From a virus: DNA of 28,455 bases. The notes beneath the pieces are model-generated. The model did no database searches. It saw nothing but the letters and a program-made list of their open reading frames with translations, and was not told the DNA's origin. The DNA is taken from the IMG/VR virus record IMGVR_UViG_3300008051_000013, positions 1 through 28,455 of that record, one strand, 5' to 3'. The number at the start of each line of letters is the position of its first letter. Position 1 is the stretch's first letter. This document shows, piece by piece, positions 17,791-28,455 of the stretch. A program made the translations under genes and the position numbers.

Positions 17791-17876
17791 CTTAATCGTT
17801 CTTTATAAAATGGTGCGATATTAAGCCCATCTTTTTATCGTATGAAGGCGCCTCCAAGAGGGGGTGTCTTTTTTTT
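17791..17876 (+). ncRNA. Candidate small plus-strand RNA 1 with structured 5' domain
   Basis: Predicted RNA of about 75-86 nt ending in T8. GCTTAAT (17790-17796) can pair with ATTAAGC (17820-17826). AAAATGG (17807-17813), inside that loop, can pair with CCAT-C-TTTT (17827-17835, one bulged C), directly 3' of the first stem. The two helices are either mutually exclusive or form a non-classical pseudoknot. The RNA is antisense to the leader between the methyltransferase stop and the small terminase start, so it could control late-block entry in cis or act in trans. No plus-strand ORF of note lies in it. Confidence 0.5.
17845..17876 (+). terminator. Plus-strand intrinsic terminator with T8 tail
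   Basis: AAGGCGCCTCC (17845-17855), loop AAGA, GGGGGTGTCTT (17860-17870), then further T to 17876. All 11 pairs form on the plus strand with three G-U wobbles; on the minus strand these become mismatches. This is a textbook rho-independent terminator pointing away from the coding direction. Confidence 0.8.
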
Positions 17877-19032
17877 ATATCTTCTTTGCTTTTTGTCCTG
17901 TAAATTGTTCCCATCTTTCTATTATTACATCACAATACTTTTCATCTAATTCCATTCCGTAACATTTTCTATTAAGTTTTTCTGCTGCTATTAATGTTGA
18001 CCCGCTTCCTAAAAACAAATCCATTACTATATTATTTTTATTACTTGAGTGAATTAAAGCATTTTCACATAATTCTAAGGGCTTCATTGTAGGGTGTAGG
18101 TCAGATTTTTTAGGTCTTTTAAAATCCCATACATTTGTTAAAGTTCTATCATTAGTAAATGTTTTACCACTATCAACCCAACCAAACCAACACGGCTCAT
18201 ATTTATTTTGATATTTACCTCTTCCTAATGTAAACTGGTCTTTATTCCAGATTATAGTTGTTGAATTATGTAGTTTTTCATCTAAAACAGTAAACATTAT
18301 TCTTCCATCTTTCCCCTGACCACTCCAACAATAAACAATTCCATCACAAAACAGCTTTATATTTTTAACAAAACCTTCTACAAATGTTTTAAAATCATCA
18401 CTACTCATATTGTCATTTTTTATATCTCTTACTTTAAATTTTGGATGCTTTATATTTCCATAATCTATATTGTAAGGAGGGTCAGTAAATACCATATCAG
18501 CTTTTTCCCCATTCATTAGTTTAGCAACATCATCTGAACTTGTACTATCTCCGCACATAACTCGGTGTTCTCCTAGCTGCCAAATATCACCTCTCTTTAC
18601 TTTGCTTTCTTTTACTTCAGGTATTTCATCATCTTCTATTAGTCCTGCTTCAGGTTCTTTATCATCTTCATTTTCCCATACATCTAAACCCCACTCAGCA
18701 AGTTGAACGCTATCCCATTCATTAGCTAACATATCCCATTCCCATTCTCCAAACCCTACATTATCTTTAACTATAAATTCTTTCTTTTGTTCTTCAGTAA
18801 GTCCTTCAGCTACTTCTATCCATACTTCTTTAAGCCCTGCATCTTTACTTGCCTTTAATCTCATATTGCCGCCTAAGACAATCATATCTTCATCAACTAC
18901 TATTGGTCTTAGCTTCAACATCTCAGGAAATTCTTGTATTGACTTTACTAGCTTTTTAAATTTATCATTTTTTATTATTCTTGGATTGCTAGGGTTTCCC
19001 TTTACTTTGCTAATCTTAACTTGTTGTTTCAT
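17875..19032 (-). CDS. ParB-like domain fused to DNA methyltransferase (N4/N6, orphan)
   Basis: 385 residues. Residues 1-80 are a ParB/sulfiredoxin-type domain (KGNPSNPRIIKNDKFKKLVK, then LRPIVVDEDMIVLGGNMRLK). A linker of about 55 acidic residues leads to a methyltransferase of the DNA N4/N6 class: WQLGEHRVMCGDS at 151-163, catalytic DPPY at 184-187, HPTMKP at 313-318 and the SAM-binding FLGSGST at 340-346. It would methylate adenine or cytosine amino groups in phage DNA, most likely protecting it from host restriction; no cognate nuclease is visible. Motif order (DPPY before the SAM motif) indicates the beta class. The gene precedes the terminase pair, separated by candidate RNA 1. Confidence 0.9.
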   Translation of the reverse strand: MKQQVKISKVKGNPSNPRIIKNDKFKKLVKSIQEFPEMLKLRPIVVDEDMIVLGGNMRLKASKDAGLKEVWIEVAEGLTEEQKKEFIVKDNVGFGEWEWDMLANEWDSVQLAEWGLDVWENEDDKEPEAGLIEDDEIPEVKESKVKRGDIWQLGEHRVMCGDSTSSDDVAKLMNGEKADMVFTDPPYNIDYGNIKHPKFKVRDIKNDNMSSDDFKTFVEGFVKNIKLFCDGIVYCWSGQGKDGRIMFTVLDEKLHNSTTIIWNKDQFTLGRGKYQNKYEPCWFGWVDSGKTFTNDRTLTNVWDFKRPKKSDLHPTMKPLELCENALIHSSNKNNIVMDLFLGSGSTLIAAEKLNRKCYGMELDEKYCDVIIERWEQFTGQKAKKI

Positions 19033-20154: not shown

Positions 20155-20225
20155 TTATTTCTCCACTCAGGGTGTTTAAATCCAAACTGCATAATAAAGC
20201 TGTCATGAGTTTTTGGGTTATACAT
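20151..20225 (-). CDS. 24-residue micro-ORF bridging two early genes
   Basis: The ATG at 20225 overlaps the last codons of the sigma-like gene (stop 20218), and its TGA at 20151-20153 overlaps the ATG of the next gene at 20154 (ATGA). The peptide starts MYNPKTHDSFIMQFGF and ends HPEWRNK; no membrane helix. Exact bridging of the 63-base gap at both ends suggests a real coupled cistron. Its composition is less A/T-driven than expected for random ORFs (Trp, His, Pro present). Confidence 0.5.
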   Translation of the reverse strand: MYNPKTHDSFIMQFGFKHPEWRNK

Positions 20226-20799
20226 CTTCATTTAATTCTTTTTTTAATATTGTTCGTACTTTATCTATTGTTGTAAATAAACTGTTGCGACTTATCCTAG
20301 TCTTAGCCGCAAGTGAATCGAGGGTATTGCCCTCATAATAATATAACTTAAATAATTCTCTATCATACCAATTTAACTTATCAAGCTGCACGTCAATTAA
20401 TTCTAACTTCTTCAAGCTCTCATTATCTACTTCTTTGTTCGGAAGATTATATATATTTTTATTATTAGCAATATTATGTGCCACATCATCATTACTAAAA
20501 GTTGTACTACAACTATAACTAGAGCTATCAATATGTGTATAATACTTTTCATACTTATAATAAAAATTACTTCTTGTACTTGTTAATGCCCTCCTTAATG
20601 CAACAGCTCCATATCTTGTAATTCCTTCAATACCATCATTCTCATATATTTTTCTGATTACTTGTGGATTTGCTTGAAGTAGATATAACATAAGTTCTTG
20701 TACAGCTTCATTAATCTTATTTTCATCAGTTGTAAGCCCATAAGCCATAGTCCTGAATTTGTCTGTTAATTTTGATATTTCTATATATATATCAGTCAT
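20218..20799 (-). CDS. Sigma factor-like HTH regulator
   Basis: 193 residues. The N-terminal half (NEAVQELMLYLLQANPQVIR) resembles sigma region 2-like helices in small phage sigma-like proteins, the middle is Asn/Ser-rich and loosely conserved, and the C-terminus (residues 135-190: LDKLNWYDRELFKLYYYEGN, then LDSLAAKTRISRNSLFTTID and KVRTILKKEL) is a region-4-type helix-turn-helix. It could redirect host RNA polymerase to phage promoters or act as a DNA-binding regulator; the protein lacks a full sigma-70 core-binding signature. It overlaps the preceding 118-residue gene by eight bases. Confidence 0.7.
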   Translation of the reverse strand: MTDIYIEISKLTDKFRTMAYGLTTDENKINEAVQELMLYLLQANPQVIRKIYENDGIEGITRYGAVALRRALTSTRSNFYYKYEKYYTHIDSSSYSCSTTFSNDDVAHNIANNKNIYNLPNKEVDNESLKKLELIDVQLDKLNWYDRELFKLYYYEGNTLDSLAAKTRISRNSLFTTIDKVRTILKKELNEDV

Positions 20800-22138: not shown

Positions 22139-22507
22139 TTATTTTAATAGTTTTGGTTCTGGTCTGTAATTTGGTACTTGTTTAGGGTTTTCCCCTTTAT
22201 CAACTCTTGATCTTGCATCCCATATTAAATCTTGATGTTGCCTTAACCATTTCATATAAACAGGAACAGTTAAATGAATAAAATCACTTTTCATTGGACT
22301 CCTAACTCCTAAACTAAAAGCATTTTCAGCATCTTCAAAGTAAAAATTCTTGTACATTCTAAATAAATCACTTGCTAAACTTTTAGACATTTGCTCAATA
22401 GTTTCTTCTTCAATATTATTTTGCCCTATTTCTATGTATGTTTTACTTAATAAATCTACTGAAGATAATATTAAATCTTGTTTTGACATTGTTTTAATTG
22501 GTCTCAT
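22139..22507 (-). CDS. Early protein, possibly replication-associated
   Basis: 122 residues, helical. The central part (SLASDLFRMYKNFYFEDAEN, then AFSLGVRSPMKSDFIHLTVP and VYMKWLRQHQDLIWDARSRV) has a pattern I associate with small proteins encoded next to replisome organisers in Bacteroidetes phages: a helical start, a GVR motif and a W-x-xx-HQ helix. The gene begins exactly where the replisome organiser ends (shared base 22507). A helicase-loading partner is one possibility; I cannot show it. Confidence 0.65.
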   Translation of the reverse strand: MRPIKTMSKQDLILSSVDLLSKTYIEIGQNNIEEETIEQMSKSLASDLFRMYKNFYFEDAENAFSLGVRSPMKSDFIHLTVPVYMKWLRQHQDLIWDARSRVDKGENPKQVPNYRPEPKLLK

Positions 22508-23118
22508 TATTCAAATTGTTTTTTTATTTTATCTTTTACATTTAAGTTTTTTTGTAAGTGTTGATGTATCTTACTCATTGTTTGTTTTTTTGTTTCCCAA
22601 TTTTTTTGATTTTTTTCCCAGCGCAATAATCTTAATTTTATTTCAAACGTGCTTTGTTTTTGGTATCTCATTTTCTTTTTACCTTCAGTCCAATAATTTA
22701 TAAAGTCCTCTAACATATCTTTAGAGTAATCAAAAGTCATAACCTCAGAAACAAATTTTTCTTTAGTTATATTTATATTACTTGTATTATTAATACTTGT
22801 ATTATTACCTTTCATCTTTTTAAGTATAGGGGTATCAATCTTTTTCGTGATACCTATACATCTTTTTATTATCTGTTTTTTAGAGTTTCTTTCTACAACT
22901 ACTTTTATAAATTCTAATTTTTTTAAATCACTAATCCAACTGCTTATAGTATTTTTACTAACTCCATATAATTCAGCAAAATAATTATTAGTTGCATAGC
23001 AGTATCCCAGTTTTCCGCTTAGTGCTGTTATTTCTCCATATAAAAGTTTGGCATTAGGTTTTAAATTAGAATACCTTACTTCAGAAGGAATAATAGCATA
23101 GTAACTGGGTTTGCTCAT
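22507..23118 (-). CDS. Replisome organiser-like winged-helix protein
   Basis: 203 residues. The N-terminus is a winged helix (SNLKPNAKLLYGEITALSGK, then NNYFAELYGVSKNTISSWIS and DLKKLEFIKVVVERNSKKQI) as in phage replication initiators of the DnaD/replisome organiser type. A low-complexity Asn/Thr/Ile linker over 105-117 leads to a C-terminal helical part (LEDFINYWTEGKKKMRYQKQ, then FEIKLRLLRWEKNQKNW), a common helicase-loader-like tail in Bacteroidetes phages. It likely binds the origin and loads host DnaB, since the phage has no own helicase. It overlaps the DnaA-like gene by one base. Confidence 0.8.
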   Translation of the reverse strand: MSKPSYYAIIPSEVRYSNLKPNAKLLYGEITALSGKLGYCYATNNYFAELYGVSKNTISSWISDLKKLEFIKVVVERNSKKQIIKRCIGITKKIDTPILKKMKGNNTSINNTSNINITKEKFVSEVMTFDYSKDMLEDFINYWTEGKKKMRYQKQSTFEIKLRLLRWEKNQKNWETKKQTMSKIHQHLQKNLNVKDKIKKQFE

Positions 23119-23627
23119 TAAATAATTTTTATTGTATAGTGATAATTTTCGAGTGCTAACTTAACATTTTCTAATTGATTTGAGAAGTCAAAATAAGAAG
23201 TTTTAATAACACACTTAACTTCACCACTTTTTACTTCTAGCAAAACATCAGATTCTAACTTTTCAACAACTCCATTTTGCAACAAATGGCTTTTCATAAA
23301 TTCTGAATCTGCAAATATATTCTTTGAATCATCAACATGCTTATAAGCTTTATAAATTTTATCAAATGCCTTTCTGTAAATAACACAATGTTTGAAATTC
23401 TTTTTATGATTACTTTCATAGTGATATGTAATACACCTATCTCGATTAAGGACTTTGGCTATTACAGTTCTATGAATACCCTCCTCTGTTAAACCAATAT
23501 ATCCTGCAATTGATCTAGCTGACTGTAAGTGCCTCTTTCTGCTCTTTAAGGCAAGAGAGCCTTCAGGCAACCCCATTACTCTTGTAGTGAGGTTGCAAAT
23601 GGCTTTAAAGTTTAATTCTTCAGTCAT
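23118..23627 (-). CDS. DnaA domain IV-like DNA-binding protein without AAA+ domain
   Basis: 169 residues from the ATG at 23627, which follows the SSB stop by one base (TAATATG); an in-frame ATG at 23648 would overlap the SSB gene by 20 bases. Residues 10-75 resemble the C-terminal DNA-binding domain of DnaA: KSRKRHLQSARSIAGYIGLT, then GIHRTVIAKVLNRDR and CITYHYESNHKKN, the LNRDRCITYHY stretch standing where DnaA has GGRDHTTV. There is no ATPase part. The C-terminal 90 residues are unrecognised. It may bind DnaA-like boxes at the phage origin, such as the 24956-24980 repeat, or sequester host sites; that is inference. Confidence 0.75.
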   Translation of the reverse strand: MTEELNFKAICNLTTRVMGLPEGSLALKSRKRHLQSARSIAGYIGLTEEGIHRTVIAKVLNRDRCITYHYESNHKKNFKHCVIYRKAFDKIYKAYKHVDDSKNIFADSEFMKSHLLQNGVVEKLESDVLLEVKSGEVKCVIKTSYFDFSNQLENVKLALENYHYTIKII

Positions 23628-23628
23628 A

Positions 23629-23958
23629 TTAGAATGGCATTTCATCATCAGTAGTTACAAACTCTGAATTAACTTCGGGATTGTTACTTTGATTAGAGAA
23701 ATGATAACCGTCAATATTGTGGTAGTATTTCCCTTTATATTCTCTTGAATAAACATTACAAAGAATAGTTACTGTCATTCCTTCTTTTAACTTATCTAAA
23801 TGCTTAATCTTATCCTCACCAAAAGCACTTACTGCAATTATGTTATTAAATTCACCACCTGTATCAACTACAACTGTTTGTTTTTCCCAAGCCTTACCCG
23901 CCTTACTTGTACCTGCTTCTTTTTGAAGCTTCTTAATTAGTTTTCCTGTTACTTCCAT
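23629..23958 (-). CDS. ssb: Single-stranded DNA-binding protein (DUF3127-like)
   Basis: 109 residues. The N-terminus (MEVTGKLIKKLQKEAGTSKA) and the strand-rich middle (VVVDTGGEFNNIIAVSAFGE, then VTILCNVYSREYKGKYYHNI) fit the OB-fold DUF3127 family found in Bacteroidetes. The C-terminal tip is acidic and ends DDEMPF (residues 104-109), the classical SSB tail that recruits partners. It would coat ssDNA during replication and recombination. It follows the possible annealing protein and precedes the DnaA-like gene by one base. Confidence 0.9.
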   Translation of the reverse strand: MEVTGKLIKKLQKEAGTSKAGKAWEKQTVVVDTGGEFNNIIAVSAFGEDKIKHLDKLKEGMTVTILCNVYSREYKGKYYHNIDGYHFSNQSNNPEVNSEFVTTDDEMPF

Positions 23959-24651: not shown

Positions 24652-24882
24652 TTAGTAGTTAAATTGTAAGAATAAATAAAAAGACCCATATCCTAAAGCT
24701 AACATTGCTAAACAAGCACAACAGAATTTGATATTGCTTATCTCTGTATTAGGGTCTTGAATAAGATAGTCTTCAGAAGTATTAATAAAATTTCCTTTAG
24801 CATTTTTAGCATAGAAGAAGTCTGCTGCCTCTTTAGGACTTGCATTAAAAGTGTGACCTGTTTTTCTGTTTGTAATTTTCAT
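24652..24882 (-). CDS. First early gene: small protein with C-terminal membrane anchor
   Basis: 76 residues. The N-terminal half is soluble (KITNRKTGHTFNASPKEAAD, FFYAKNAKGNF); residues 52-73 (IKFCCACLAMLALGYGSFYL, then FLQF) form one hydrophobic segment, so the protein is probably C-terminally anchored with its N-terminus in the cytoplasm. As the first gene after the control region it is likely an immediate-early product, perhaps in takeover of the cell envelope or superinfection exclusion; that is inference from position only. Confidence 0.65.
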   Translation of the reverse strand: MKITNRKTGHTFNASPKEAADFFYAKNAKGNFINTSEDYLIQDPNTEISNIKFCCACLAMLALGYGSFYLFLQFNY

Positions 24883-24909: not shown

Positions 24910-24917
24910 CAAAAGTA
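24910..24917 (-). promoter_or_regulatory. Candidate early promoter -7 box (TACTTTTG)
   Basis: Minus-strand TACTTTTG matches TAnnTTTG exactly and ends 28 bases before the first early ATG at 24882. No convincing TTTG at -33 is visible at the standard spacing, so the assignment rests on the -7 box and position. Confidence 0.45.
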
Positions 24918-24950
24918 AAAAGAAATATTGATTACTAACACATTTACTTA

Positions 24951-24958
24951 CAAAGTTA
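24951..24958 (-). promoter_or_regulatory. Candidate early promoter -7 box overlapping an operator (TAACTTTG)
   Basis: Minus-strand TAACTTTG matches TAnnTTTG and overlaps by three bases the inverted repeat at 24956-24980, a layout that would let a protein bound to the repeat block initiation. A standard -33 TTTG is not clear. Confidence 0.45.
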
Positions 24959-24980
24959 TTAACAATTTAAGTGTTAATAA
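24956..24980. repeat. Perfect 9-bp inverted repeat, DnaA-box-like arms
   Basis: TTATTAACA and TGTTAATAA (perfect reverse complements) around seven bases. Each arm matches the DnaA box consensus TTATNCACA at all but one position (A for C at position 6). The site overlaps the candidate promoter box at 24951-24958 and may be an operator, an origin element, or both. Confidence 0.7.
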
Positions 24981-25052: not shown

Positions 25053-25083
25053 ATGGCTAAAGGGGGGTTATAAATTTAGCCAT
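25053..25083 (-). terminator. Inverted repeat at the end of the lysis cassette; weak terminator or control element
   Basis: ATGGCTAAA (25053-25061) and TTTAGCCAT (25075-25083) are perfect reverse complements around 13 bases. The stop codon of the 25-residue micro-ORF lies in the loop region. On the minus strand the stem is followed by TTTTAGG, a short T-run, so it can act as the end of the late transcript, though the tail is weak. Confidence 0.4.
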
Positions 25084-27834: not shown

Positions 27835-28455
27835 TTAATTGTAATATCCGTGATTTTTCATTTTTCTTGGTGGTATTGCTACCAATCTATCATTCTTCTT
27901 AGCTGTGAACCCTTCTGATCTAGCTTTAGTGTACCCAATCAAATCAGCATCTTCTATTTTAGTAGTCCTAGATTCTCCTATTACTGTCTTAAAGATTCGT
28001 CTAGTCCAAAAATGGAAACATTGTGGTCCTCCTTTGTAGAGCCAGATTGAATAGGTATTAGCACCATCAATACCAAAACCTGGATTAACAGCTTTTTTGC
28101 TCATAGCTAAAATATCCTCCTTACGATACATCTTCTTTGCACCCATCATTTGTCTGCAAAATTTTCTTTTAGTTCCTGACTTGTTAGTTAGAAAATTGTC
28201 ATTCTCATACACATATCTTACTCTAAAGTAATCACCTGATTTTTTAGACAACCCATCTTGCTCAGATTTCCTTCCTGGCTTTGGGCTTCCTGTTGAAGCT
28301 AATTCTATCTTTTCGTTAGCTACTTCATTTAAAACTTCTTCAAAATCAAAATCCTGGTGTTCTCCATCTACTATTTCTTCTTCTACCAATTCCCAATCTT
28401 CAGGAATATCCTCCCCAAATTCTTCAATAAAAGATTCTAATTCTGTCTTTTCTAC
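27835..28455 (-). CDS. Phage portal protein, C-terminal part with extension domain
   Basis: Continuation of the portal gene from the left edge: the first codon in the window (GTA at 28455) corresponds to residue 409 of the 614-residue protein. A TTG at 28389 is internal to the frame, not the gene start. An acidic linker (ELESFIEEFGEDIPEDWELV) leads to an extension of about 150 residues: FRVRYVYENDNFLTNKSGTK, FCRQMMGAKKMYRKEDILAM, NPGFGIDGANTYSIWLYKGG and QCFHFWTRRIF. Conserved-looking Cys, His and Trp in GGPQCFHFWTRR resemble the C-terminal motif of phage minor head (gp7/MuF-like) proteins, hinting at a fused minor head domain; this is tentative. The bases after 28332 duplicate the window start. 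Confidence 0.85.
   Translation of the reverse strand, partial: VEKTELESFIEEFGEDIPEDWELVEEEIVDGEHQDFDFEEVLNEVANEKIELASTGSPKPGRKSEQDGLSKKSGDYFRVRYVYENDNFLTNKSGTKRKFCRQMMGAKKMYRKEDILAMSKKAVNPGFGIDGANTYSIWLYKGGPQCFHFWTRRIFKTVIGESRTTKIEDADLIGYTKARSEGFTAKKNDRLVAIPPRKMKNHGYYN
28333..28455. repeat. Terminal direct repeat, right copy
   Basis: Identical to bases 1-123; see the left copy. It indicates a closed circular assembly or circular permutation. Confidence 0.95.

Follow-up and report, generated by a model that had tools for sequence, protein, structure and literature searches.

A 12-bp-phased array of DnaA-box-like 9-mers at the early promoter of uncultured marine phages encoding a DnaA domain IV protein

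Results

The window, i.e. the whole stretch of DNA analyzed here, comprises the 28,455 nt of IMG/VR record IMGVR_UViG_3300008051_000013, with all main genes located on the minus strand. Given a direct repeat of some 125 bases at its two ends (1-125 = 28331-28455), the genome is probably complete and circular, with a size of about 28.3 kb. Close cultured relatives of the window phage were not found, and the nearest terminase is that of Flavobacterium phage 11b (54%). The early operon is opened by a gene without a database family (24652-24882, minus strand), followed on the same strand by a single-strand DNA-binding protein-like gene (DUF3127; 23629-23958), the gene of a DnaA domain IV protein (23118-23627; PF08299 and structure match) and, directly downstream of the latter, the replication initiator gene rep (22507-23118; HTH_36, O/DnaD-like). 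The gene behind the DnaA-like gene is of one of two rep types, which alternate and look unrelated (window 22507-23118; L019, L023, L164, L177, L183, L193). Further genes of the window encode a protein with a weak match to sigma-70 region 4 (20218-20799), possibly a sigma factor with which the phage serves its later genes, and a DNA methylase carrying an N-terminal ParB-like domain (17875-19032).

The earlier note on this DNA had described the product of 23627-23118 as resembling the DNA-binding domain of DnaA without the ATPase, and this description was borne out. The DnaA C-terminal profile PF08299 scored 15 bits against the window protein alone, below its cutoff of 31.5, and matched 29/33 diverse family members at E <=0.01 (best 6e-8). 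A sequence search of solved structures with the DnaA-like protein returned no DnaA and only weak, unrelated matches. In the predicted structure (pLDDT 85), domain IV (residues 6-99) superposes on the DnaA-DNA complexes 3pvp and 1j1v with Z scores of 14.4 and 14.1, the next unrelated fold reaching 5.6. The AAA+ ATPase domain III with its Walker motifs is absent from the 169-residue protein, because only an alpha/beta domain of 74 residues, too short for AAA+, lies beyond domain IV; this C-terminal part (residues 100-169) had no confident fold match in the structure search. An identity with the T5 D5 regulator, suggested by a weak PHROG match, was discarded for want of a PF08299 match. Residues were aligned by eye to E. 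coli DnaA, with the conserved RD-H motif and the distance between R399 and R407 as anchors, and read against the published list of base contacts (R399, P423, D433, H434, T435 and H439; PMC7561715). In this alignment, the equivalents of R399 (94/94), D433 (68/94) and H439 (86/94) are kept, as is that of R407, while H434 is always replaced by R and P423 mostly by R or H. As modelled, the protein is a true DnaA domain IV joined to a new C-terminal domain, with no ATPase.

Upstream of the early operon, the earlier note had pointed to two inverted 9-mers, TTATTAACA-N7-TGTTAATAA, at 24956-24980. Both arms are exact (0 mismatches), and each differs from TTATNCACA by one base (position C6 -> A). The motif is the sole match in the window allowing up to 3 mismatches, although matches of this kind also turn up in 14/100 shuffled windows. 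Perfect 9-bp inverted repeats with spacers of 0-20 number 3 in the window vs 2-10 in Markov-1 copies; two of the three fall in one 259-bp intergenic region, where 0.065 were expected. The second of these (25053-25083; ATGGCTAAA/TTTAGCCAT) precedes a TTTT on the minus strand and is probably the terminator of the upstream operon. The palindrome as the entire signal was rejected, being at chance level by itself and missing from half of the relatives. By itself it is unremarkable, and its significance derives from conservation and from its membership in a direct array with a period of 12 bp. The inverted pair is real, but the functional unit is a direct array of three to four boxes, to which the palindrome adds an optional extra box in half of the relatives.

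In the window, this array extends over 24931-24966 on the minus (early) strand and consists of three direct TGTTAATAA-like boxes, with a score of 37.3 vs a maximum of 13.9 over 100 shuffled windows. Box 1 (24956-24964; TGTTAATAA, which is TTATTAACA on the plus strand) is the former left arm and the first unit of the array. It is followed 12 bp downstream by box 2 (24944-24952; TGTAAGTAA) and then by box 3 (24932-24940; TGTTAGTAA), which overlaps the -33 element of the early promoter. The former right arm (24972-24980; TGTTAATAA on the plus strand) is an inverted box 7 bp upstream of box 1. The -7 box of the promoter, TACTTTTG (24910-24917, minus strand), is of the flavobacterial sigma-A type, for which the consensus has been described (PMC9723704), and its TAnnTTTG form is conserved in the relatives. 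The promoter conforms to the arrangement of TAnnTTTG at -7 with TTG at -33, 19-21 nt upstream: TACTTTTG is accompanied by GTG at 21 nt in the window and by TTG at about 19-21 nt in most relatives. The site had been placed at the early control region, which agrees with a conserved box covering -33. A TAnnTTTG-like sequence, TAACTTTG (24951-24958, minus strand), does overlap the left arm as noted before, but the promoter conserved in the relatives uses TACTTTTG.

For the comparison with relatives, viral contigs were fetched by similarity to the DnaA-like protein, and the region between a metallophosphatase-like gene and the early operon was compared. To avoid circularity, 55 non-redundant control regions were chosen by protein similarity only. 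These regions carry direct TGTTAATAA-like 9-mers every 12 bp that end in a TTG-N19-21-TAnnTTTG flavobacterial promoter, and their self-similarity peaks at lag 12 (16.9 vs 13.3 shuffled) and lag 24. The array is present in 54/55 regions, with three direct boxes in 35 and four in 19; the single miss (L160) is a mis-picked region, and the element of this contig was recognized at another of its loci (L039). An inverted upstream box occurs in 27/54 regions, with a spacer of exactly 7 in 26, compared with 0.25% expected at a fixed spacer. The arrangement of array and promoter is found in hundreds of uncultured marine phages, and no description of a phased promoter array was found in the literature searched.

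The last box begins 21-24 nt ahead of TAnnTTTG in 46/49 measurable relatives and therefore covers -33. This geometry bears on the direction of a possible regulation. Class I/II activators have their sites upstream of the promoter, and the boxes of the array likewise reach upstream. Activation of the early promoter by the bound protein, or binding of another phage or host regulator, is nevertheless very unlikely in our judgment, as the last box covers -33 itself in almost all relatives and an early promoter has to be active before any phage protein has been made.

A second full array with promoter is located beside terL on the opposite strand, before a small reverse gene, in two relatives (L093:1475 and L129:1140). 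Such a position fits the binding site of a regulator better than an origin.

To assess the linkage of array and gene without selecting for the protein, sites were taken from scans for the DNA pattern and counted where 3 kb or more of sequence followed downstream (n=73). A DnaA-like gene was found on the same strand, 1.1-2.8 kb from the array, at 67/73 of these DNA-selected sites. Of the sites without the gene, L075, L117, L122, L243 and L247 are matches lacking a proper array and promoter, and L093, which bears the second array, is a truncated contig from a phage of the same type. Among cellular genome contigs, the sole match (L030) is a chance match within another enzyme. A repeat conserved in phages without the DnaA-like gene would have spoken against the earlier proposal, and no phage with array and promoter was shown to lack it (54/55 and 67/73 in the two selections). 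Since the whole module is passed on as one unit, this co-occurrence is weak as proof of a functional relation.

Box and recognition helix were not seen to covary: array and DnaA-like protein distances gave partial Mantel values of 0.06-0.09 (rho ~0.1, not significant), and recognition helices were diverse among the phages with variant arrays. Mapped on trees, the box class undergoes 5 changes for the DnaA-like protein and 7 for each of two neighbours. Array and rep distances gave partial Mantel values of 0.27-0.31 (p 0.002), and the box variant TGTTAAAAA was accompanied by rep type 2 in 9/10 cases, vs 13/84 for the standard box (Fisher 4e-6, kinship uncorrected). Because the classes were defined post hoc on loci that share ancestry, this association is a lead and not a proof. 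It makes us less confident that the box sequence is determined by the DnaA-like protein alone. As the box variant tracks the rep type, Rep and host DnaA come into question as ligands.

Binding of the downstream Rep, with the array serving as iterons or as a Rep-controlled operator, would accommodate both of these associations. We consider it quite unlikely in view of the exceptions (thirteen rep2 phages with the standard box and one rep1 phage with the variant), of the tree-independent pairs of box and rep, which number 3 and are too few for a test, and of the conserved internal inverted repeat of rep1-type genes, including that of the window, which is a better origin candidate.

Host DnaA as the ligand, sensed or titrated by the array while the phage domain IV protein competes or modulates, is unlikely as well, even though a variation of the boxes independent of the phage protein would fit host tracking. 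The boxes lie one base from TTATNCACA; the window has TTATTAACA instead of this exact consensus, and exact boxes (TGTGAATAA) occur in some relatives. DnaA is moreover a known transcription factor whose binding activates transcription at the lambda origin (PMC8203912). Against host DnaA, most boxes deviate from the consensus at position 6, and the array, where readable, always accompanies the phage's own domain IV gene. The literature searched held nothing usable on DnaA boxes of Bacteroidetes.

The start of replication at this site, which the earlier note had considered besides repression, was not supported, as a GC-skew inflection was not seen and the cumulative skew falls monotonically through the site; the test is weak because all main genes lie on one strand. 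Phased DnaA-like boxes in AT-rich DNA, together with SSB and Rep in the operon, would suit an origin opened by the DnaA-like protein. We regard this as highly improbable, given that the protein has no AAA+ domain, the part that opens DNA in DnaA, that the boxes are fixed to the promoter geometry, and that two relatives (L093, L129) carry the second array near terL, in addition to the skew.

The rep gene contains an inverted repeat (TATAGGTATC...GATACCCCTATA, 22764-22860) that relatives keep at the DNA level, and 22767-22812 shows 91% DNA identity over 46 bp to replication genes of Staphylococcus phages. Judged by its sequence, this rep-internal repeat is likely an intragenic origin.

Discussion

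We propose that the array is an operator bound by the DnaA-like protein, which would damp the early operon by covering -33; from the sequence evidence at hand, we rate this reading at about even chances. Expression of the early operon would yield copies of the phage DnaA domain IV protein, which may bind the 12-bp-spaced TTATTNACA boxes, presumably in a cooperative manner. The last bound copy would cover the -33 element and keep sigma off, and with accumulating protein early transcription would be damped, so that the early/replication operon would regulate itself negatively. One further copy might bind at the inverted upstream box. Of the earlier proposal that the protein represses early transcription and/or starts replication, the first part is in keeping with the promoter location, the overlap with -33 and the co-occurrence with the gene, whereas the origin part lacks a skew inflection.

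Points in favor of an operator are the array in nearly all protein-selected regions (54/55), the agreement of the 9-mer with 7/8 fixed positions of the DnaA box and the exact boxes of some relatives, the superposition of domain IV on DnaA-box complexes, the kept equivalents of R399, R407, H439 and mostly D433, the position of the last box on -33, the second array near terL and the TTATTAACA before rep in Gundel_1. Against it stand the divergence of the boxes, which follows rep rather than the DnaA-like protein, the replaced H434 and P423 contacts, and the flavobacterial phage snusmum9-1, which encodes a stand-alone DnaA-C protein without such an array. Most likely, the DnaA-like protein is the ligand and represses rather than activates.

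Repressors of the lambda cI/Cro type bind several operator copies overlapping the early promoter. The array shares the several copies on the early promoter but differs by the DnaA fold of its predicted ligand and by its direct 12-bp repeats, and no divergent lysogeny gene was seen in the window.

A parallel in terms of the protein is E. coli DnaA, which recognizes TTAT-type 9-mers in the dnaA promoter through its domain IV and represses that gene (PMC8203912). The window protein would do the same according to its predicted binding, but the phage has neither AAA+ nor a nucleotide switch, and its boxes are phased by 12 bp on -33 and changed at box position 6. At the lambda origin, DnaA binding likewise regulates transcription of a phage replication region (PMC8203912), with the difference that the host protein acts there while the window phage encodes the domain itself. 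With DnaA acting on transcription in both of these cases, as a repressor of dnaA and at the lambda origin (PMC8203912), the proposed mode has a precedent. For an ATPase-free form at a phased array, none was found in the literature searched.

Annotations of stand-alone DnaA-C proteins already exist for other phages, and a structure search in viral proteins returned many of them, including those of cultured Flavobacterium and Tenacibaculum phages. Domain IV alone, without the ATPase, is also present in snusmum9-1 and tooticki6-1 (Flavobacterium), in Gundel_1 (Tenacibaculum) and in uncultured Caudovirales. In snusmum9-1 and Gundel_1, the recognition helix keeps the DHAT form, unlike in the window family, and the 12-bp array was found neither in snusmum9-1 nor in the 50 kb of Gundel_1 examined. 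As in the window phage, the DnaA-like gene of Gundel_1 lies directly before rep. The 169-bp gap between them (L254:16735-16903) holds TTATTAACA and a second 9-mer, TTTTTAACA, just upstream of a TATATTTG promoter box, which is suggestive only because about five such 9-mers (TTATNAACA, both strands) occur in 50 kb. Phage phi39:1 gave a Rep match but carries neither an array nor an annotated DnaA-like gene.

Many phages have annotated stand-alone DnaA-C proteins, frequently labelled replication initiators, without a known site or role. A concrete predicted operator for one large uncultured group makes such a role testable on a promoter fragment of roughly 90 bp. As the early promoter drives a stand-alone box-reading domain, the phage has probably converted a domain of a replication initiator into a switch for its own genes. 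It is conceivable, though doubtful at present, that throughout this group of marine Bacteroidetes phages an ATPase-free DnaA domain acts as the master switch of early genes through a 12-bp-phased array whose shifted specificity leaves it unused by host DnaA. If true, the DNA-reading domain of an initiator would have been reused here as a pure transcription regulator.
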